DNA of 64,000 nucleotides, taken from Streptosporangium brasiliense (lineage in GTDB: Bacteria > Actinomycetota > Actinomycetes > Streptosporangiales > Streptosporangiaceae). The notes under the pieces were generated by a model, which searched no databases, had not been told where the DNA came from, and saw only the letters and a program-made list of their open reading frames with translations. The translations under genes and the position numbers were made by a program. Positions 41,340 to 50,237 of the stretch are shown piece by piece (the stretch's first letter is position 1; the number at the start of each line of letters is the position of its first letter). The stretch lies in NCBI RefSeq assembly GCF_030811595.1, contig NZ_JAUSRB010000002.1, positions 6,448,001-6,512,000 of the forward strand, in the 5' to 3' direction.

Positions 41340-41672
41340 ATGCTCGAGAAGACCCCGCTCCGTACCGAGGTGCAGAGCACCGACGCGGGCACCACGCTGC
41401 TGGTGCTCGCCGGTGATCTGGACTACGACACGGCCGCCGAGCTCTTCCCCCTGGCCCAGGAGCTGCTGGCCGGGCAGCCGCGCCGTCTGGAGCTGGACCT
41501 GTCGGGCCTGGAGTTCGTCGACTCCTCCGGGGTGGCGGCCCTGATCAACGTCTACAACACCGCCCGCGAGCACGGCGGCACCATGCGGATCGTCGCCCTG
41601 ACCTCCTACCTGCGCCACCTGTTCAAGGTGACCGCCCTGGACCAGGTCTTCGACCTGCCGCCCGTCCAGTAG
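41340..41672 (+). CDS. STAS-domain anti-sigma factor antagonist
   Basis: A 110-residue RsbV/SpoIIAA-like protein. The phosphorylatable serine is in LEFVDSSGVAALINVY. In the non-phosphorylated form these proteins bind anti-sigma kinases and free the sigma factor. It begins 6 nt after the B12 gene, and the upstream SpoIIE-type phosphatase is its natural activator. No anti-sigma kinase or sigma gene is nearby, so those partners are encoded elsewhere. Confidence 0.92.
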   Translation: MLEKTPLRTEVQSTDAGTTLLVLAGDLDYDTAAELFPLAQELLAGQPRRLELDLSGLEFVDSSGVAALINVYNTAREHGGTMRIVALTSYLRHLFKVTALDQVFDLPPVQ

Positions 41673-41748
41673 CGCCCCGGCCCGGGCCCGTCCCGCCCGC
41701 GGGCGGCGGCCGCGGCCCGGCTCCGCACGGGGGCGTGGGTGATTGCCG

Positions 41749-41820
41749 GCGACACACCGCGGCAGAAGCCGATCTCGCCGATCCTTACCGCTTAACCTGC
41801 GAAAACAGGATCACGCGCAG
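41749..41820 (+). promoter_or_regulatory. 72-nt conserved element, copy 1 (upstream of DUF4394 gene)
   Basis: Compared with 50166-50237 on the other strand, 63 of 72 positions are identical with no gap: the first 12 (GCGACACACCGC) fully and the last 36 at 35 positions, including TTACCGCTTAACC and the hairpin CCTG-CGAAAA-CAGG. It ends 73 nt before the ATG at 41894. A possible 18-codon leader frame (GTG 41739, stop TAA 41793-41795) ends just before the hairpin; the other copy also has a frame ending at this TAA with a related C-terminus (DTP, P, SP, LTA). I do not recognise a known riboswitch. Confidence 0.7.
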
Positions 41821-41893
41821 GCCGGTCCGCCCACCATGCCGTGGCCGTGGCCGGTCCGGGCGCGCCGGCGCCCGGTCGCAGAGGAGAAGGCAC

Positions 41894-42757
41894 ATGCGAA
41901 AGACACTCATCGCCGCCCTGGTGGTGCTGAGCGCGGCGGCGGGCACCACCGCGCCGGCGCTGGCCGGCAGCCGGCCCCGCCTGGCGGTCGTCGGGCTGAC
42001 CGACGGCCAGCGCCTGGTGCTCTTCCAGGCCAGCTCCCCCGAGAAGGTCCACGACCTGGGCGCGGTCCGCGGGCTCCAGGGCGACAGCGCCCTGGTCGGC
42101 ATCGACTACCGCGTGCAGAACGGCAGGCTGTACGGCGTCGGCGACCAGGGCGGCGTCTACGTCCTGAACCGCTCGGCCGTGGCGACCAAGGTCTCCCAGC
42201 TGACCGTGGCGCTGAGCGGCACCGGTTTCGGCGTCGACTTCAACCCCGCCGCCAACCGGCTGCGCGTGATCAGTGACACCGGGCAGAACCTGCGGCACAA
42301 CATCGACGATCCGGCCGGCACCCCCGCCGCGGGACAGACCGTGGCCGACGGCCCGCTGACCAATCCGCCCGTCCCGCCGGCCACCACCGGCGCCACCGCG
42401 CTCGGCGTCTCGGGGGCCGCCTACACCAACAACGACCTCAGCCCGGCCACCGCCACCACGCTGTTCGACCTCGACACCGGCGCCGACCGGGTGAGCCTGC
42501 AGTCTCCCGCCAACGCGGGCACCCTGGCGCCGGTCGGCGCCCTGGGCGTGGCCGCGACCGGCGGCGCGGGCTTCGACGTCTACAGCTCGGTGCGCGGTGA
42601 GGTCACCGTCTCCAACAGCGCCTTCGCCACCTTGAGGGTCGGCGACGGCTACCGCTTCTACGGCGTGGACCTGCTCACCGGCGCGGCCGACCTCTACGGC
42701 TCCTTCCCGCGCCACCGCCAGGTCGTCGACATCGCCCTGCCGCTCGACCGGAACTGA
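41894..42757 (+). CDS. exported DUF4394 protein
   Basis: A 287-residue protein with a Sec signal (RKTLIAALVVLSAAAGTTAP, then ALAG). The mature part matches DUF4394: FQASSPEKVHDLGAVRGLQG, VGIDYRVQNGRLYGVGDQGG and GFGVDFNPAANRLRVISDTG, a beta-propeller-like repeat family of unknown function. The ATG follows GAGGAGAAGG. It may be controlled by the conserved element upstream. Confidence 0.85.
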   Translation: MRKTLIAALVVLSAAAGTTAPALAGSRPRLAVVGLTDGQRLVLFQASSPEKVHDLGAVRGLQGDSALVGIDYRVQNGRLYGVGDQGGVYVLNRSAVATKVSQLTVALSGTGFGVDFNPAANRLRVISDTGQNLRHNIDDPAGTPAAGQTVADGPLTNPPVPPATTGATALGVSGAAYTNNDLSPATATTLFDLDTGADRVSLQSPANAGTLAPVGALGVAATGGAGFDVYSSVRGEVTVSNSAFATLRVGDGYRFYGVDLLTGAADLYGSFPRHRQVVDIALPLDRN

Positions 42758-42797
42758 CCGGCTCCACCCCTCTCACCGGGGGGGCGGGGCCGCGGCC

Positions 42798-43598
42798 TCA
42801 GCGCGGCTCCGGCCGCCACAGCCGCTGGACCTGCCCGTAGGAGGGCACGTCGTCGGCGACCGGGCCGCCGGCGGCCACCTCCAGCGCGGTGGTGACGGCC
42901 GCCCGCAGCGCGGTGCGGAACAGCAGGGAGCCGTAGCTGATCCGCCGCACGCCCAGGGCCGCCAGTCGCGCCGGCGGCACCTGCGGTTGGATGAGCACGT
43001 TCAGCGGCACCGCGGCGGCGGCGACCAGCGCCTGCACCTCCCGTTCCCGGGCCGCCCCCGGGACGAACACCCCGTCGGCCCCCGCGCCGGCGTAGGCCTG
43101 GACCCGCCGCACGGCTGTGGCCAGGGCGTCGGGCGCGCCCAGCCAGAACGGGTCGGTGCGGGCGTTGACGAACAGCCGCGGCACCCGTTGCTTGATCGCG
43201 CCGATCAGCGCGACCTGCTCCGACACCTCCGCCAGGCCGCGGCCGCGGCCGTCCTCGATGTTGATCCCGGCGACCCCGGCGTCGGCCAGTTCCTCGGCCA
43301 GGTCGGCCACCTGGGCGGGTGAGCCGCCGAAGCCCGCCTCGATGTCGACCGTGACCGGCACCTGCAGCCTGGCGATCCCGCGTGCCAGCGCCACGGTCTC
43401 GGCCCGGGTGGCCTGCTCGGCGTCCGGCTTGCCCGCGGCCGCGGCCACTCCCAGGCTCGTCGTCCCCACCGCCGCGAACCCGGCCGCCGCCAGCGCCGCC
43501 GCCGAGGCGTGGTCCCAGGCGTTGGGCAGCAGCAGGGGCTGGTGGCCGTGGTGCAACGCCCTGAACCGCTCGGACATCGTCGGCCCGGCCGCCGTCAC
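42798..43598 (-). CDS. isocitrate lyase/PEP-mutase family protein
   Basis: A 266-residue TIM-barrel enzyme: LLLPNAWDHASAAALAAAGF, the substrate/metal region VTVDIEAGFGGSP, GINIEDGRGRG and LFVNARTDPFWLG. It belongs to the PEP mutase / 2-methylisocitrate-lyase-like branch that acts on C-C or C-P bonds, with reaction unassigned here. The GTG start overlaps the stop of the P450 gene (GTGA), so both are made together. Confidence 0.88.
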   Translation of the reverse strand: MTAAGPTMSERFRALHHGHQPLLLPNAWDHASAAALAAAGFAAVGTTSLGVAAAAGKPDAEQATRAETVALARGIARLQVPVTVDIEAGFGGSPAQVADLAEELADAGVAGINIEDGRGRGLAEVSEQVALIGAIKQRVPRLFVNARTDPFWLGAPDALATAVRRVQAYAGAGADGVFVPGAAREREVQALVAAAAVPLNVLIQPQVPPARLAALGVRRISYGSLLFRTALRAAVTTALEVAAGGPVADDVPSYGQVQRLWRPEPR

Positions 43599-44548
43599 CG
43601 CCGCACCGCCTCGATCACCCCGGCCGCCAGCGCCAGCGCGATCTCCCGCCCCGGGCAGGGGCGCGGCCCCGCTCCGAAGGTCAGGTGCTCCTGTGTGCGG
43701 CCGGGCCGGAAGCGGCCGGGGTCGTCGAACACCTCCGGATCCCGGTTGGCCGCCGCCACATCCAGCAGTACGGGTGTGCCGGGCTCCGCGCCGCCCGCCG
43801 CCCGGCCCGGCCCTGTCACGACGCGGCGCAGCACCCGCACCGGTGGGTCGTGGCGCAGCGTCTCGGCCAGCAGGTCCTCCACCGGGCAGGCCGCGGTGCC
43901 GGCCGCCAGCGCGTTGCGGATCAGGGTGGCCGTGGAGTCGCAGGCCTGGGCCAGCAGTCCGGCCAGTACGGCCAGCCGCTCCGGCTCGGGGTCGCCCAGC
44001 AGCCTCGACAGCCGGGCCAGGCCCGCGTCGGCCGCCGCCGTGTCACCGGCGGCGTCTGCGGCGGGGTGGGCGGCGCCCGCGGTGGCGGCGTGCCCGGTGC
44101 CTGCGACCTCGGTGCTTGCCGGGGCGGTGCCTGCGACCTGGGCGCTTGCGGAGGCGGGGGCCGGGGCGGGCAGGTAGGCCGGGGCGAACCGTGCTACCGC
44201 CCGCGCCGCCTGCCCGCCCTCTTGCGCCCGGACGCCGAGCGCGACGGCCAGCACCTCGACCGGGATCAGCTCGATCGGGACCGCCCCGGCCTCCCGCGGG
44301 GCCGAGGAGGCCCGCCGGAAGGCCGCGGCGCGCAGCGCCGGCGCCCGCAGCCCGGCGAGCACCTCCTCGGCCGCGGCCCGGCGCCGGGCGTGCAGGGGGC
44401 CGTCGGCGAAGCGGCTGACCGCGCCGCGCAGCCAGGCCACGGTCAGGGCGGAGGGCGGGCGGGGCGCGGGCACGACGGACAGGCCGGGGTCGGTCAGGAG
44501 CGCGCGCACCTCGTCGTAGCGGCTGACGACCAGCGGGTGTGAAGTCAT
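43595..44548 (-). CDS. cytochrome P450, compact form
   Basis: A 317-residue P450. The heme loop is FGAGPRPCPGREIALAL with the cysteine near residue 298; the K-helix ExxR is LAETLRHDPPVRVLRR; the I-helix region is LLAQACDSTATLIRNAL, keeping the threonine. Actinomycete P450s are usually about 400 residues; this one lacks about 50 residues at the N-terminus and has an Ala-rich insert at about 130-175 (APASASAQVAG and similar). It could be functional but atypical. It is co-translated with the PEP-mutase-like gene and divergent from an ArsR-like gene. Confidence 0.85.
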   Translation of the reverse strand: MTSHPLVVSRYDEVRALLTDPGLSVVPAPRPPSALTVAWLRGAVSRFADGPLHARRRAAAEEVLAGLRAPALRAAAFRRASSAPREAGAVPIELIPVEVLAVALGVRAQEGGQAARAVARFAPAYLPAPAPASASAQVAGTAPASTEVAGTGHAATAGAAHPAADAAGDTAAADAGLARLSRLLGDPEPERLAVLAGLLAQACDSTATLIRNALAAGTAACPVEDLLAETLRHDPPVRVLRRVVTGPGRAAGGAEPGTPVLLDVAAANRDPEVFDDPGRFRPGRTQEHLTFGAGPRPCPGREIALALAAGVIEAVRR

Positions 44549-44612
44549 GTCCCGACGCTAGGGGTGGGAGGCTTCGGCGCCCGCCGAAGTGTCGGCCGGT
44601 CATGATGGACAG

Positions 44613-45359
44613 ATGACATCTACGACGCCGATCCCTCTTGCCGTACTGGCCGGGCTGCTGGCCGACACCACCCGGGCGCGTTTCTGCCTGGCGCTGCTGG
44701 ACGGGCGTGCCTGGACCGCCGGTGAGCTGGCCCGGCACGCCGGGGTCGCGGCCTCCACGGCCAGCGAGCACCTGTCACAGCTGGTGGAGGGCGGCCTGCT
44801 GGCCGAGGAACGTCAGGGACGCCACCGGTATCTACGGCTCGCCGGGCCGCAGGTGGCCCAGCTCATCGAGGACCTGACGGCCCACGCCGAACGCGCCGAG
44901 AGCGCCGCCAGGCCGCCGACGCTGCGCGCGGCGAGCGCGGCCAAGGCGATGGCCGCCGCGCGGACCTGCTACGACCACCTGGCCGGAAGGCTCGGTGTGA
45001 CCATCACCGACGCGCTCACCGCCCGGGGGCTGCTGCGCCAGGACACCGGCTTCGCGCTCAGCGACGAGGGGCTGGCCTGGTTCGAGGGGGAGCTGCGGGT
45101 GCCGCTGCCGCCGCCCACCGGCAGGCGCCCCCTGGCCCGGCCCTGCCTGGACTGGACCGAACGCCGCCATCACCTGGCCGGCTCCGCCGGGGCCGCGCTC
45201 TGCGCGACCGCGCTGGAGCGCGGATGGGTGAGCCGGATCGGCTCCGGACGGGCGCTGCGCGTCACCGGGGCCGGACAGGAGGCTCTGGGCGCGCTGCTGG
45301 GCCTGGACGGGCTCACCGGTGAGGCCGCCCAGGTCACGGCGAGCGCAGCCGGTGGGTGA
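44613..45359 (+). CDS. ArsR-type winged-helix regulator, long form
   Basis: A 248-residue protein whose N-terminal HTH reads LADTTRARFCLALLDGRAWT, AGELARHAGVAASTASEHLS and a wing ERQGRHRYLRLAG. The C-terminal half (WFEGELRVPLPPPTGRRPLA, CLDWTERRHHLAG) matches the extended ArsR proteins common in actinomycetes and has no metal-site cysteine cluster. It is divergent from the P450 unit, its likely target. The last 26 nt overlap the converging recD2 gene. Confidence 0.88.
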   Translation: MTSTTPIPLAVLAGLLADTTRARFCLALLDGRAWTAGELARHAGVAASTASEHLSQLVEGGLLAEERQGRHRYLRLAGPQVAQLIEDLTAHAERAESAARPPTLRAASAAKAMAAARTCYDHLAGRLGVTITDALTARGLLRQDTGFALSDEGLAWFEGELRVPLPPPTGRRPLARPCLDWTERRHHLAGSAGAALCATALERGWVSRIGSGRALRVTGAGQEALGALLGLDGLTGEAAQVTASAAGG

Positions 45360-47550
45360 GGCTGGTGTGGCGCCGTCCCGCGCCCCGGGTCCGCACCGCC
45401 TGGGCCAGGGCCCGGCGTGAGCCGACGATGACGACGAGTTTCTTGGCCCGGGTGATGGCGGTGTAGAGCAGGTTGCGCTGCAGCATCATCCACGCGCTGG
45501 TGGCCAGCGGGATGACCACCGCCGGATACTCGCTGCCCTGGGAGCGGTGGATGGAGACCGCGTAGGCGTGCGCCAGCTCGTCCAGCTCGTCGAAGGCGTA
45601 CTCGACGTGCTCGTCCTCGTCGGTCAGCACGGTCAGCTTGTGGTCGTCGGGCTTGATGTCGACCACCATGCCCACGGTCCCGTTGAACACCCCCGCCGCG
45701 CCCTTGTCGTAGTTGTTGCGCAGCTGGGTCACCTTGTCGCCGACCCGGAAGACCCGGCCGCCGTAGCGGCGCTCGGGCATGCCCTCCCGGGAGGGGGTCA
45801 GCGCCTCCTGCAGCGAGGTGTTGAGGTTGCCCGCCCCCGCCGCGCCCCGGTGCATCGGCGCCAGCACCTGCACGTCCCGGCGCGGGTTGAGGCCGAACTT
45901 GCGCGGGATCCGGTTGGCCACCACGTCCACCGTCAGCGCCGCGATCTCCTCCGGCTCCTCGCACGGGAACAGGAAGAAGTCGTTCATGCCCTCCAGTGCC
46001 GGCGGCAGGCCGGTGTTGACCCGGTGGGCGTTGGTGACCACGCCCGACTCCTGCGCCTGGCGGAAGATGTGGGTCAGCCGGACCCGGGGGATCTCCTCCT
46101 CGGCGGCCAGCAGGTCCCGCAGCACCTCGCCGGCGCCGACCGACGGCAGCTGGTCCACATCCCCCACGAACAACAGGTGCGTGCCCGGCGCGACGGCCTT
46201 GACCAGCTTGTTGGCCAGCAGCAGGTCCAGCATCGAGGCCTCGTCGACCACGACCAGGTCGGCGTCCAGGGGGTTGTCGCGGTCGAAGGTGGCATCCCCG
46301 CCGGGGCGCAGCTGCAGCAGCCGGTGCACGGTGGTGGCCTCGTGGCCGGTCAGCTCCGCCAGCCTCTTGGCCGCCCGGCCGGTGGGCGCGGCCAAGATCA
46401 CCTTGGCCTTCTTGGCGCGGGCCAGGGTGACGATGGAGCGTACGGTGAAGCTCTTGCCGCAGCCGGGGCCGCCGGTCAGCACCGCGACCTTCTCGCACAG
46501 TGCCAGCCGTACGGCGTGGGCCTGCTCGGGGGCGAGGTCGGCGCCGGTCCGCTGCTGCAGCCACTGCAGGGCCGCCTCCCAGTCCACCGACCCGAAGACG
46601 CCCAGCCGGTCGTGGCCGGAGGCCAGCAGGGCGCGCAGCGAACCGGCCAGCGACAGCTCGGCGCGGTGGAAGGGGACCAGGTAGACCGCCGGGACGGTGC
46701 CGTCGCCGACGGGGACCTCCTCGCGGACCACGCCCTCCTCGGTGACCAACTCCTCCAGGCACCGGACGGTCAGTTCGGCGGGGACCTCCAGGATCTTCAC
46801 CGCGTCGCCGACGAGGTTGGGCGCCGGCAGGTAGCAGTGGCCGTCGTCGGCGGCCTGCGACAGGGTGTAGCGCAGCCCCGCCTTGACCCGCTCGGGGCTG
46901 TCGTGCGGGATGCCGACGGCCTGGGCGATGGCGTCGGCGGTCTTGAAGCCGATCCCCCACACGTCGTCGGCCAGCCGGTAGGGCTCGCTCTTGACGACCG
47001 TGATGGAGGCGTCGCCGTACTGTTTGAAGATCCGTACCGCGATGGAGGTCGACACGCCGACCCCCTGCAGGAAGATCATCACTTCTTTGATGATCTTCTG
47101 TTCCTCCCAGGCGACGCCGATCATCTTGGTCCGCTTGGGCCCGAGGCCGGGGACCTCGACCAGGCGCTCGGGAGCGGTCTCGATGATCTGGAGGGTGTCG
47201 GCGCCGAAGTGGTCGACGATCCGCTCGGCCATCTTCGGCCCGATGCCCTTGATCAGTCCGGAGCCCAGATAGCGCTGGATGCCCTGGACGGTGGCGGGCA
47301 GCACGGTGGTGTAGGACCACACCTCGAACTGCTTGCCGTACTTCGGGTGGGAGGTCCAGCGCCCGGTCAGCCGTAGCGACTCGCCGGGCTGGGCGCCCAG
47401 CAGCGGCCCGACCACGGTCAGCAGGTCACTGCCCGAGCGTTCGGTGGCCACCCGGGCGATGGTGTAGCCGGTCTCCTCGTTGGCGTAGGTGATGCGTTCG
47501 AGGACGGCGTCGATGGATGCCGTAGGGGGACCACCCGATCCAGGCTTCAC
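45334..47550 (-). CDS. recD2: RecD2-type ATP-dependent DNA helicase
   Basis: A 738-residue superfamily-1B helicase. The N-terminal OB and helix-hairpin-helix region (YLGSGLIKGIGPKMAERIV; VPGLGPKRTKMIG) precedes the motor with Walker A LTGGPGCGKSFTV (360-367), Walker B VVDEASMLD, motif III VGDVDQLPSVGAGEVLRDL, and the C-terminal motif HRSQGSEYPAVVIPL. This long N-terminus marks the RecD2 branch, which acts without RecBC in repair. GTG start 7 nt after AGAGG. Confidence 0.95.
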   Translation of the reverse strand: MKPGSGGPPTASIDAVLERITYANEETGYTIARVATERSGSDLLTVVGPLLGAQPGESLRLTGRWTSHPKYGKQFEVWSYTTVLPATVQGIQRYLGSGLIKGIGPKMAERIVDHFGADTLQIIETAPERLVEVPGLGPKRTKMIGVAWEEQKIIKEVMIFLQGVGVSTSIAVRIFKQYGDASITVVKSEPYRLADDVWGIGFKTADAIAQAVGIPHDSPERVKAGLRYTLSQAADDGHCYLPAPNLVGDAVKILEVPAELTVRCLEELVTEEGVVREEVPVGDGTVPAVYLVPFHRAELSLAGSLRALLASGHDRLGVFGSVDWEAALQWLQQRTGADLAPEQAHAVRLALCEKVAVLTGGPGCGKSFTVRSIVTLARAKKAKVILAAPTGRAAKRLAELTGHEATTVHRLLQLRPGGDATFDRDNPLDADLVVVDEASMLDLLLANKLVKAVAPGTHLLFVGDVDQLPSVGAGEVLRDLLAAEEEIPRVRLTHIFRQAQESGVVTNAHRVNTGLPPALEGMNDFFLFPCEEPEEIAALTVDVVANRIPRKFGLNPRRDVQVLAPMHRGAAGAGNLNTSLQEALTPSREGMPERRYGGRVFRVGDKVTQLRNNYDKGAAGVFNGTVGMVVDIKPDDHKLTVLTDEDEHVEYAFDELDELAHAYAVSIHRSQGSEYPAVVIPLATSAWMMLQRNLLYTAITRAKKLVVIVGSRRALAQAVRTRGAGRRHTSLTHRLRSP

Positions 47551-47819
47551 GGAAAACCTCTCTCTAACCTTCCCGGGCCAGGGTAGAAGGGTAGAGCAGT
47601 GGCCGGCGACCGCGATGGGCCGCCGGGGACCGGAGCCCGGCTCCCCCGGGGCGCGCTCCGGTCCCGGCCTTCCCGCAGTCCAGGGGAGATTTCCACCGGA
47701 CCTGCCTGACCCGCACTGATGCGGGCCTGTTCCGTTTGTCGATCACTTCCGCGCAGGACGCCGTGGGTACGCCCCCACCTGATCGACCCTGCTCGCTGGG
47801 AAGGCCGCCCTGACGTAGG

Positions 47820-48287
47820 TCACCTACGTGTGCGGAGGGCCTGGACGGCGGCGGTGATTCCCTTCTTGTCGTAGCTGCCGGTGGGCATGGTGGAGCCGTG
47901 GGCGTGACGGATGACGCCCTGGGAGTCGACGAGGATGCTGCCTGACTGCTGCATCGAGCCGAAGACCTTCCTGCTCAGGCCGATCATCTCGTGCGGGGTG
48001 CCGTGGCGGCCGGTGAGGACGGGGAAGGGGATCTGACGCTTGGCCTTCCACTCGGCCGCGGCCTGGCGGTCCTCGGGGACCGCGACAAGCACTCGCACGT
48101 TGTCGGCGGCGAGCTCGTCGCGGCGCCGGATGAGGTCCTGGACGTGCCGGTAGCAGACCGGGCACGACGTCGACCGCATGAAGTAGACGAGCACAGCGTG
48201 ATTGCCCTGGTAGTCGGACAGGCGGACGGCCTGGCCGTCGGTGTCTTCCAGCACGACGTCGGGCGCGGGCGATCCAGTTTCAAGCAT
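47820..48287 (-). CDS. peroxiredoxin (AhpC/TSA family)
   Basis: A 155-residue thioredoxin-fold peroxidase: VLEDTDGQAVRLSDYQGNHA, then the peroxidatic site MRSTSCPVCYRHV with a CxxC arrangement, as in BCP/AhpE-like single-domain forms. It reduces peroxides using thiols. The ATG at 48287 is 8 nt after GAGGA; the frame extends to 48305. A perfect dyad ACGTAGGT-C-ACCTACGT (47813-47829) spans its stop codon. Confidence 0.88.
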   Translation of the reverse strand: MLETGSPAPDVVLEDTDGQAVRLSDYQGNHAVLVYFMRSTSCPVCYRHVQDLIRRRDELAADNVRVLVAVPEDRQAAAEWKAKRQIPFPVLTGRHGTPHEMIGLSRKVFGSMQQSGSILVDSQGVIRHAHGSTMPTGSYDKKGITAAVQALRTRR

Positions 48288-48371
48288 GGCGGAAATCCTC
48301 TTCAACTCGGGTTGTGAAATACGGTCTGCTCGGGTCAGGCGCCAGTGGGCTCCGGGGTCGTGCGGCCGCGG

Positions 48372-48452
48372 TCAGCCACGTCCGCGCCCTTGCCGTCGGA
48401 ACGAGGTCGTGAACAGTGCCTGCCGCACGGCCGGCATCACGACGTCACTCAT
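48372..48452 (-). CDS. short ORF (26 codons) with a strong ribosome site
   Basis: The frame begins MSDVVMPAVRQALFTTSFRR and ends in an Arg/Gly run before TGA. GGAAGGAG sits 7 nt upstream of the ATG. It lies 84 nt before the peroxiredoxin gene on the same strand. It may be a leader peptide, a truncated gene start or chance; I recognise no family. Confidence 0.35.
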   Translation of the reverse strand: MSDVVMPAVRQALFTTSFRRQGRGRG

Positions 48453-48499
48453 CCGAATCTCCTTCCCAGCGTGACCGTCATCCCATAAGAGGCCTCCAC

Positions 48500-49255
48500 G
48501 CCGCGAAAGGATTCACCGTCTCGGGATCGATCTCGCTCGGCGCACCCCCGAGCCGTACGTCGGCAATCGGGCCGGCGCCCTCCTCGTGCTGGGCACCTCG
48601 GCGTTGACCGCGGCGTCGGCTGTCGGCTCGACCGGCGACGGCACCGCAATGATCATGTCGTGTGTCGGGCTGGTGGCCTTCTCCATGCACACGCGGCCGA
48701 GCCCACTGGTGATCATTACGATGACGGGTGCGACGGTCATGGCGGCCACCTCGTCGTGCGTGTTCTCGGAGCGATCGGCCGGTGACGCGTTCGGCAACGC
48801 CGCGGTGATGGTGGTCGTCGTGGTGCCGGGACTCAGCCGGCGGCAGTACCGCGCCCAGGCCGAGCACGCCCACCGGCTGCTGGAACAGACTCAGCGCGCC
48901 CAGGCGGGGCACGCGCGAGCCGCCGCGTTGGACGAACGGACCAGGATCGCCCGTGAACTCCACGATGTCCTCGCGCACTCCCTCGGTGCCCTGGGCGTGC
49001 AACTGGAGCTGGCCGACGCGCTGCTGAGCGACAAGCACGATCTGAACGGTGGGTTGGAACAAGTACGGCGGGCCCGTCGGCTGGCCGCCGAGGGCCTGTC
49101 CGAGGCACGACACGCGGTGGCAGATCGCCACGTCGCTGTTCATCGGCGAGTCGACGGTCAAGACGCACATCAACAACGCCTTCGCCAAGATCGGAGCCCG
49201 TAGCCGCAGCGACGCGACACGCTACGCCTACCGGCAGGGGTTGGCGGAAGGCTGA
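48500..49255 (+). pseudogene. NarL-type two-component locus: sensor kinase joined by deletion to the end of its LuxR regulator
   Basis: Frame 1 (from about 48500) encodes a membrane part (TMTGATVMAATSSCVF; AAVMVVVVVPG) and a HisKA_3 dimerisation helix with the phospho-site DERTRIARELHDVLAHSLG. It ends after GLSEARHAV near 49110. Directly after, in frame 2, WQIATSLFIGESTVKTHINN and FAKIGARSRSDATRYAYRQG are the recognition half of a LuxR-type HTH. The kinase ATPase domain, the receiver domain and half of the HTH are missing, as expected from one internal deletion with a frame change. The kinase N-terminus is also short. Confidence 0.75.
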
Positions 49256-49261
49256 AAACGG

Positions 49262-49969
49262 TCAGAGCAGCCGGATCGTCCTGCCGATCCGGTCGAACAG
49301 GGCCTGCTTGCCGTCCTGGTCGGTGCTGAGCGTGACGGTGCAGGTCCTGCCCTGGGCGGGCAGGTAGAACTGGGTGCCCTTGACCTGCATGCCGCCGGCC
49401 GGGAAGACGTAGACCATCCGCGCCGCCTCCGTGCCGCCGACGGGCACCTTGGTCGCTTCGATGATCTTGGCTCTGATCTGTTGCAGCTCGCCGGTGGCCG
49501 CGCTGATCAGCTGGTCGGTCGAGGCGTCCGAGCTGGGCTGGCAGTAGCCGTTGAGGTTGGTGGTGAAGCCGTTGGGCGATCTGTGCCTCGATCCGGGGTC
49601 GAAGGCCCAGACGGCCTTGTTGGTCACCAGCGGCTGCAGGTCCCGCTGGGCCCGCTCCAGCGCCTTGCCCGACAGGCCGCTGCGCTTGAGCCCCTGCTGG
49701 AGGTCGTCCTTGGTCAGGTCGAGCGCGACCCAGGAGTCGGGGACCGCGACGGCGAGCCCGTTGGCGGTGCTGCCGACCAGTTCGAAACCGCCGGGCACGG
49801 TGGCGGCCCCGCCGCCGCCCGTCGGATGCCCCGGGCTCCCCGTGGGAGCCGCCGTGGGGGTCCCCGTCGGGGCCTGCGCCAGGTTGACGGGGCCGCCGCC
49901 TGCGCAGGCGGCGGCCAGCGCCAGGCACAGCGCGCCCGTGGCCGCCACGATGGGATAGCGCTTACGCAC
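49262..49969 (-). CDS. lipoprotein of unknown function
   Basis: A 235-residue lipoprotein. The signal peptide (RKRYPIVAATGALCLALAAA) ends at Cys22, followed by a Pro/Thr/Gly linker of about 45 residues. The mature domain starts with GFELVGSTANGLAVAVPDSW and continues through LVTNKAVWAFDPGSRH to GTQFYLPAQGRTCTVTLSTD. I do not recognise the fold. The GTG start is 7 nt after GGAGGG. The second copy of the 72-nt conserved element lies about 200 nt upstream on the same strand. Confidence 0.75.
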   Translation of the reverse strand: MRKRYPIVAATGALCLALAAACAGGGPVNLAQAPTGTPTAAPTGSPGHPTGGGGAATVPGGFELVGSTANGLAVAVPDSWVALDLTKDDLQQGLKRSGLSGKALERAQRDLQPLVTNKAVWAFDPGSRHRSPNGFTTNLNGYCQPSSDASTDQLISAATGELQQIRAKIIEATKVPVGGTEAARMVYVFPAGGMQVKGTQFYLPAQGRTCTVTLSTDQDGKQALFDRIGRTIRLL

Positions 49970-50165
49970 CAGACTGCCCTCCTCGCGGGCCTCGCGGGGA
50001 GGCCCGATGCCGATCGACCGGTGAAACCGCAAGGTGAATCGCCACAGGGGGACCTCCCGCACCGGAACCGCCTCGTCCCGGCCGGTAGGGGCAGCCCAAC
50101 CAATGACAGGCGGCGCCTGTGCTCACTCGTCGCTGCTTGACGTGTCGCAGGAGCGCGCAGCGGAG

Positions 50166-50237
50166 CTGCGCGTGTTCCTGTTTTCGCAGGTTAAGCGGTA
50201 AGTGTCGGTGAGGCCGGGTTCCGCTGCGGTGTGTCGC
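50166..50237 (-). promoter_or_regulatory. 72-nt conserved element, copy 2 (upstream of lipoprotein gene)
   Basis: Reverse-strand partner of 41749-41820 (63 of 72 identical, no gaps). It contains the same GCGACACACCGC block, the TTACCGCTTAACC core and the CCTG-CGAAAA-CAGG hairpin. It lies 197 nt upstream of the lipoprotein start. The remaining bases of the 50-50.4 kb gap show no gene. Confidence 0.7.

Follow-up and report, generated by a model that had tools for sequence, protein, structure and literature searches.

An IS256-type right end without its transposase upstream of two genes of Streptosporangium brasiliense, probably domesticated as an outward promoter

In eukaryotes, solo long terminal repeats (LTRs) are solo transposon ends that have been kept as promoters of host genes. 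The present work concerns, by comparison, a bacterial DNA transposon and a piece of ~70 nt: a 72-nt element found twice in a 64,000-nt stretch of the Streptosporangium brasiliense genome (contig NZ_JAUSRB010000002.1, positions 6,448,001 to 6,512,000; the whole stretch is called the window here), upstream of a DUF4394 gene (copy 1) and of a predicted lipoprotein gene (copy 2). Judged by reading frame and subterminal sequence, both copies are right-end pieces of an IS256-family insertion sequence (IS) from which the transposase is gone. The predicted activity of this right end is that of an outward promoter, which has probably been domesticated by host genes.

According to the excerpts of two papers on which our comparison draws, IS256-type elements move by circles whose joined ends often form a promoter, with the -35 in the right repeat and the -10 in the left repeat (PMC7780238), and complete outward promoters are also known at IS ends (PMC9330008). 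The closest cases are IS256 of Staphylococcus and ISCth4, which share with ours an IS256/Mutator-type transposase and a right end upstream of a host gene, with outward transcription that we propose here. In these elements the -35 lies in the right terminal repeat and the -10 comes from the other end or from the target (PMC7780238, PMC9330008), whereas our element has conserved boxes inside the terminal repeat, partly coding, which have outlasted both repeat and transposase. ISAba1, IS1237 and others resemble it in having a complete promoter in the IS end able to drive a neighbour gene (PMC9330008), but there present elements activate genes, while in our case orthologous genes of different species retain relics. 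In the titles and abstract openings of the open-licence PMC papers that our text searches listed, we found no domesticated right end that lacks its repeat and is conserved at orthologues.

An earlier note, made from the letters of the window, had reported the two inverted copies as matching at 63 of 72 positions and differing at one base over the last 36 nt; our ungapped alignment reproduces these values, with 28/36 identities in the first half and 35/36 in the second. The hairpin letters CCTG-CGAAAA-CAGG and the shared sequences TTACCGCTTAACC and CACGCGCAG are present in both copies, as the note had also said. Outside the copies only 17/40 positions agree upstream and 13/40 downstream, and because similarity drops at the element edges, a segmental duplication including flanks is disfavoured. 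A blastn search of the own genome with 41740-41830 recovered copy 2 (E = 5e-19). A search of its 10.5 Mb for the core with at most 3 mismatches gave five sites (reversed control: none), two of them in the window and the other three after the C-terminal part of a Transposase_mut-type gene (Pfam was run on the pieces of locus L004 only). Copy 1 shares 84% identity over 81 nt with two transposase-linked copies of this genome.

By sequence match, the element corresponds to the 3'-terminal part of an IS256-family insertion sequence and comprises the last ~15 transposase codons and a non-coding stretch past the TAA stop. In transposase-linked copies the usual order is ...EARRYMGLD...GDTP....LTA and stop, box 2, GATCACGCG, and a right terminal repeat ending GGACGTGACC. 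The frame common to both window copies, ending GDTPRQKPISPILTA and RDTPQRNPASPTLTA at the stop, equals this transposase tail; a shared frame closing at the same TAA (DTP..., LTA) had been seen correctly in the earlier note, and its nature is that of the tail of a transposase gene. In 83 of the 148 distinct copies at the loci examined, the 1.4 kb upstream include IS256 transposase sequence on the strand of the element. These 148 are a sample, with more matches listed than fetched, in which divergent matches were preferred and gene orientation was not a criterion. The IS256/Mutator-type assignment comes from PF00872 and NF033543 (E = 7e-100 for the NF033543 match of one transposase-linked copy). 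Copies with a full transposase are present in related genomes, and most full elements are 1.42-1.43 kb long. Within 1.4 kb upstream of either window copy, tblastn gave no transposase match at E <= 1e-3, and no left- or right-end terminal repeat occurs in the window at up to 3 mismatches, so the window copies are not intact IS256 elements; a miniature inverted-repeat transposable element was rejected on the same absence of both repeats. What both copies do have is the transposase C-terminal frame and the subterminal 3' sequence, arranged and spaced as in transposase-bearing copies.

The core search in relatives that the earlier note had proposed found it in 32 of 200 family genomes (at most 3 mismatches). 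At the same tolerance, the two-box pattern described below occurs in 80/341 genomes and 17/68 genera, with no match for the reversed control, and a profile search matched 179/338 genomes at the loose limit E <= 0.05. Across the class, all 10 of the 296 genomes matching at E <= 1e-5 are the own genome or members of the same family, and plasmid and phage collections yielded nothing beyond partial matches at E >= 0.1; searches over 40 genomes were run with stricter filters. The element has thus been seen in one family only, Streptosporangiaceae. The earlier note had set a mobile element end against a shared control element. For the origin a mobile element end is correct, but the piece seems to have persisted after the element itself was lost. 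Among 19 genomes with solo copies, 11 have no related transposase at E <= 1e-60. Action of the transposase itself on solo copies is therefore unlikely, as the relative fetched from genome G158 also has a different right end.

Some transposase genes deserve separate mention. G158 has six matches to the IS256 transposase, and the fetched one (L254, G158:C1:998900-1000750) is 71% identical, with a C-terminal tail and right end that are quite different and lack both boxes. The transposase-linked copies of the own genome (G000:C2:6944513-6946815, L003/L004; 3829476, L005) look broken. There, an IS256 C-terminal part of 101 aa adjoins a gene on the opposite strand that also resembles, by eye, a transposase gene; a pair of right ends in inverted orientation is separated by ~2.3 kb.

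Conservation of the element is concentrated in two boxes. Over 20 transposase-free copies, the near-invariant columns are GCGACACRCCG (box 1) and GCTTAACCTGC..AAA (box 2), with little between them, and GCGACACACCG and CCGCTTAACCTGCGnAAACAGG are kept ~28 nt apart while the flanks are randomised. The distance from GACACACC to GCTTAACC is 31 in 78/83 transposase-bearing copies. Where both transposase and clear terminal repeat are missing, 30 copies have 31, 8 have 30 and 2 have 32, and 3 have lost box 1; of the repeat-bearing transposase-free copies, 11 have 31, 4 have 26, 28, 34 or 37, and 6 have lost box 1. In front of the lipoprotein gene, comparison of 7 species in 21 pairs gave 100% identity for box 1 throughout and 77-100% for box 2, against 14-56% for the flank from -60 to -11, and this holds across far diverged lipoproteins. 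The lipoprotein has a match in all 16 genomes of the genus and the element was found upstream in 7 fetched loci, whose carriers form one side of one branch of the lipoprotein tree (support 90/85); the branches leading to G005 and G170 are very long. DUF4394 is present in 7/16 genus genomes, with the element in 2 of the 8 loci scanned.

The boxes are under DNA-level constraint already in the transposon, as their codon usage indicates. The Thr codon of DTP is ACA in 22/25 cases, compared with 5/563 Thr codons in the transposase body; the Ala codon of LTA before the stop is GCT in 25/26, compared with 51/1189; and its Leu codon is CTT in 14/27, compared with 22/992. These counts come from 27 distinct long transposase open reading frames (ORFs) that are related, so that p-values are too small while the contrast is large. 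Read from this codon choice, the boxes are signals in the DNA within the transposon.

Upstream of the lipoprotein gene, element-free genomes of the genus (L076, L078, L080, L081, L082) share another stretch (GTTTCCGRyAT ... GGGTA, by eye), as if promoter replacement had occurred there. Further conserved blocks, for example GGCGATTC, lie between element and lipoprotein start in L071-L075, outside the transposon relic.

Copies that have lost the transposon are mostly oriented towards genes. For copies without transposase or clear repeat, the gene within 250 nt is on the same strand in 34, on the opposite strand in 3, and far or absent in 7; the values are 10, 1 and 9 for repeat-bearing transposase-free copies and 8, 17 and 56 for transposase-linked ones. 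The same-strand bias of the first group over the transposase-linked group is significant at 250 nt (Fisher p = 9e-7) and at a 400-nt limit (transposase-linked copies 16 same, 20 opposite; p = 1e-5). Genes were called by a custom automatic rule using GC by codon position. Of the three opposite-strand calls, two (L209, L210) are ORFs that overlap DUF4331 genes oriented like the element, and the third (L236) is a weak element match (E = 1.4e-4); weak matches also occur among the same-strand cases (L237, L235, L234; E 3e-5 to 1e-3). Sense-strand placement upstream of genes, as claimed in the earlier note, is thus borne out, whereas exported proteins are not the rule. Pfam names downstream include cytochrome bd oxidase I, DUF4331, luciferase-like monooxygenase, cupin, SnoaL, CAP and pyridine nucleotide-disulphide oxidoreductase, and a scan of 15 downstream proteins, 5 of them without a match, added zinc alcohol dehydrogenase, CBM48/alpha-amylase and DEAD helicase.

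The copies also form a decay series, from intact elements through terminal repeats without transposase to boxes only. Of all 148 copies, 65 lack a transposase match, 21 of them with a clear terminal repeat (at least 17/22 letters) and 44 without; some of the 21 lie at contig ends, where the transposase may be missing from the assembly only. Among the 44, a weak repeat trace stands at the expected place in 14 at p <= 0.05, where ~2 are expected. The trace after window copy 1 has a position-weight score above all 228 control positions, and the orthologues of copy 2 in L059 and L060 also have a trace (p = 0.004). In ten DUF4331 loci out of 12 the element is present (a thirteenth locus, a 73-aa fragment, was left out), and at one extreme of these loci a terminal repeat is still visible (G280, L296), while at the other just the boxes are left. 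The DUF4331 proteins are 83-91% identical to that of G250 across two genera, so that transfer of gene and element together is possible. At cydA-like genes, 6 of 30 fetched loci have the element. A tree of 22 cydA-like proteins contains three label changes, most simply two gains and one loss, with G254 on a long branch and of unsure placement; on this tree two captures upstream of cydA-type genes are the simplest account. Of the cydA-like matches to the g31 gene in the own genome, the nearest (L262, G000:C2:3431213-3432568) has one TGA and may be broken or misassembled.

A model based on these data is that, in the intact element, box 1 in the last transposase codons and box 2 over the stop and beyond it would together make an outward promoter region at the DNA level. 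Insertion upstream of a host gene would let the element drive that gene, after which transposase body and terminal repeat would decay while selection keeps the two boxes. Origin, conservation, orientation bias and constraint on the DNA are computed results; we infer the promoter identity of the element, its -10 and the role of box 1 from sequence: TAACCT of box 2 would be the -10 hexamer, transcription would start at or near the A-run 5-7 nt past it, and box 1, ~50 nt upstream of the start, may bind an activator or RNA polymerase. Across ten DUF4331 loci, the end of TAAyCT lies 123, 108, 106, 95, 57 and 43 nt from the ATG and, in four species, 8 nt. The letters past TAACCT are purine-rich, with the A-run at positions 11-13 counted from the T. 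As excerpted from the two papers concerned, TANNNT ~12 bp before the start codon (from the first T) marks leaderless genes in high-GC bacteria (PMC3160421), and 73% of primary start sites in M. tuberculosis have a TANNNT whose centre lies 7-12 bp upstream; no -35 is conserved there, and about half of the TANNNT promoters carry an SRN triplet before the hexamer (PMC3898074). By analogy, our layout is close to that of a leaderless actinobacterial promoter, sharing the short distance to the ATG in the four DUF4331 genes and, as in M. tuberculosis, the absence of a conserved -35 (PMC3898074); it differs in the much stronger conservation of box 1 and the whole of box 2 compared with a lone -10 hexamer.

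Several observations weigh against a domesticated promoter of IS origin. The four species with the 8-nt layout all belong to one genus. In them the ATG follows the first T of TAACCT at a distance of 14 nt, compared with ~12 in the excerpt of PMC3160421, and the preceding triplet is GCT, not the SRN of the excerpt of PMC3898074. Near copy 1 a sigma-70 consensus scan gave no promoter, and conservation over the 20 transposase-free copies does not extend to any -35-like hexamer. A -35 of extracytoplasmic function (ECF) type, suggested by GAACC-like letters in many spacers, was dropped on its absence from several copies. The 34 same-strand cases collapse to ~20 gene groups (by eye), a few with doubtful gene calls or weak matches. 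Finally, window copy 2 shows no repeat trace (p = 0.45), nor do the lipoprotein loci of G005 and G170 (L085, L086), and G158 reaches p = 0.066; for want of a clear trace, the IS origin of copy 2 and of these three loci rests on orthology and the boxes.

An operator beside a different promoter also fits most of the data and must be counted among these points. The boxes, still derived from the IS, would here bind a host regulator of redox or stationary phase, with the promoter elsewhere. The 30-32 nt between GACACACC and GCTTAACC in the 40 two-box copies without transposase or clear repeat look bipartite, genes for cytochrome bd oxidase, pyridine nucleotide-disulphide oxidoreductase, luciferase-like proteins and alcohol dehydrogenase follow, and the lack of a conserved -35 also speaks for it. 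This account is nonetheless unlikely, since a start codon 8 nt after TAACCT in four species leaves no space for a downstream promoter.

The direction of events could also be the reverse, with an original host promoter that the IS256 lineage acquired at its right end, which would be compatible with promoter function. The absence of a detectable terminal-repeat trace from the cydA copies and the DUF4331 copies of genus g33, together with the G005 and G170 lipoprotein loci, speaks for it, but the traces in other carriers, including copy 1 and L059/L060, and the DUF4331 series starting from a visible repeat make it improbable. Functionless, decaying relics, alike through recency, would produce the decay series as well, and many family genomes lack the boxes at these genes; this is very improbable given the invariance of box 1 in 21 pairs beside a randomised flank, the orientation bias, and the genomes with solo copies but no related transposase.

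A structured RNA in the 5' untranslated region (a riboswitch or attenuator, possibly with a leader peptide) is the reading least in keeping with our data, and we consider it highly improbable. Its sense-strand placement would suit it, and individual copies fold somewhat more stably than their shuffles (window copies, z -2.35 and -1.76; two further copies, -2.35 and -1.33), but the window copies fold differently from each other and the consensus fold over 20 copies has -0.81 kcal/mol and zero compensated pairs. The two small hairpins covary no more than shuffles (reached by 160 to 166 of 500), though the pairs are preserved more frequently than slid pairs, which any conserved sequence would show; the compensatory changes for which the earlier note had asked are accordingly not seen. 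No Rfam family matches in the window at the gathering threshold or in 41660-41910 at E up to 10. As to a leader peptide, the spacer is 30 or 32 instead of 31 in 10/43 copies without transposase or clear repeat, although these are not separate events, many of the 30s being DUF4331 copies of one genus. Because such one-base changes break the old frame, itself the IS256 transposase C-terminal tail, no peptide is kept, and the start codon directly after box 2 in four species also speaks against an RNA. Of the shared control element that the earlier note had suggested, the DNA part, conserved beyond the coding genes and upstream on the sense strand, therefore stands, while the RNA part and the possible leader peptide do not.

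The coordinates of both copies and their genes are given in the table. Export of the DUF4394 protein and lipoprotein status of the other are both predicted from N-termini read by eye, and Pfam and NCBIfam scans of the predicted lipoprotein gave no match. Elsewhere in the window, a 205-aa ORF (48586-49203, +) has a piece resembling, by eye, a histidine kinase dimerisation region, possibly of a broken gene.

Table. Positions of the two element copies, their boxes and the genes downstream, in window coordinates.
Feature	Position	Strand	Basis or remark
Element copy 1, right (3') end relic of an IS256-family element, upstream of DUF4394 gene	41749..41820	+	Identity with copy 2 and with own-genome transposase-linked copies
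Box 1 GCGACACACCG of copy 1, codes DTP in the transposase	41749..41759	+	
Box 2 CCGCTTAACCTGCGAAAACAGG of copy 1	41788..41809	+	Includes TAA (former transposase stop, 41793-41795) and TAACCT (proposed -10 hexamer, 41793-41798)
Faint remnant of right terminal inverted repeat, 3' of copy 1	41816..41855	+	Position-weight score, p = 0.004
DUF4394 gene, ATG 41894, 73 nt past copy 1	41894..42757	+	PF14339, E = 7.7e-73
Element copy 2, same relic, upstream of predicted lipoprotein gene	50166..50237	-	Shared by six further genomes of the same genus
Box 1 GCGACACACCG of copy 2	50227..50237	-	
Box 2 CCGCTTAACCTGCGAAAACAGG of copy 2	50177..50198	-	
Predicted lipoprotein gene, GTG 49969, 196 nt past copy 2	49262..49969	-	Match in 16/16 genus genomes

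Outward IS promoters as presented in the excerpts of PMC9330008 and PMC7780238 concern the activation of nearby, often resistance, genes by present elements, while the solo ends described here seem to have persisted at orthologous genes as species and genera diverged. A more tentative extension, which we regard as doubtful, is a transposon-built regulon, in which one IS family would have spread one promoter type across its host family and wired redox and envelope genes to a common box 1 activator. Its members could be the genes for cytochrome bd oxidase (most simply captured twice), pyridine nucleotide-disulphide oxidoreductase, luciferase-like proteins, DUF4331 and the lipoprotein. If the domesticated promoter is real, the long-term fate of an IS-borne promoter would be directly testable in bacteria, and Streptosporangiaceae would offer a ready series for the conversion of a mobile into a host promoter: copies with transposase, copies with a repeat relic, boxes only, and a start codon placed near the -10.

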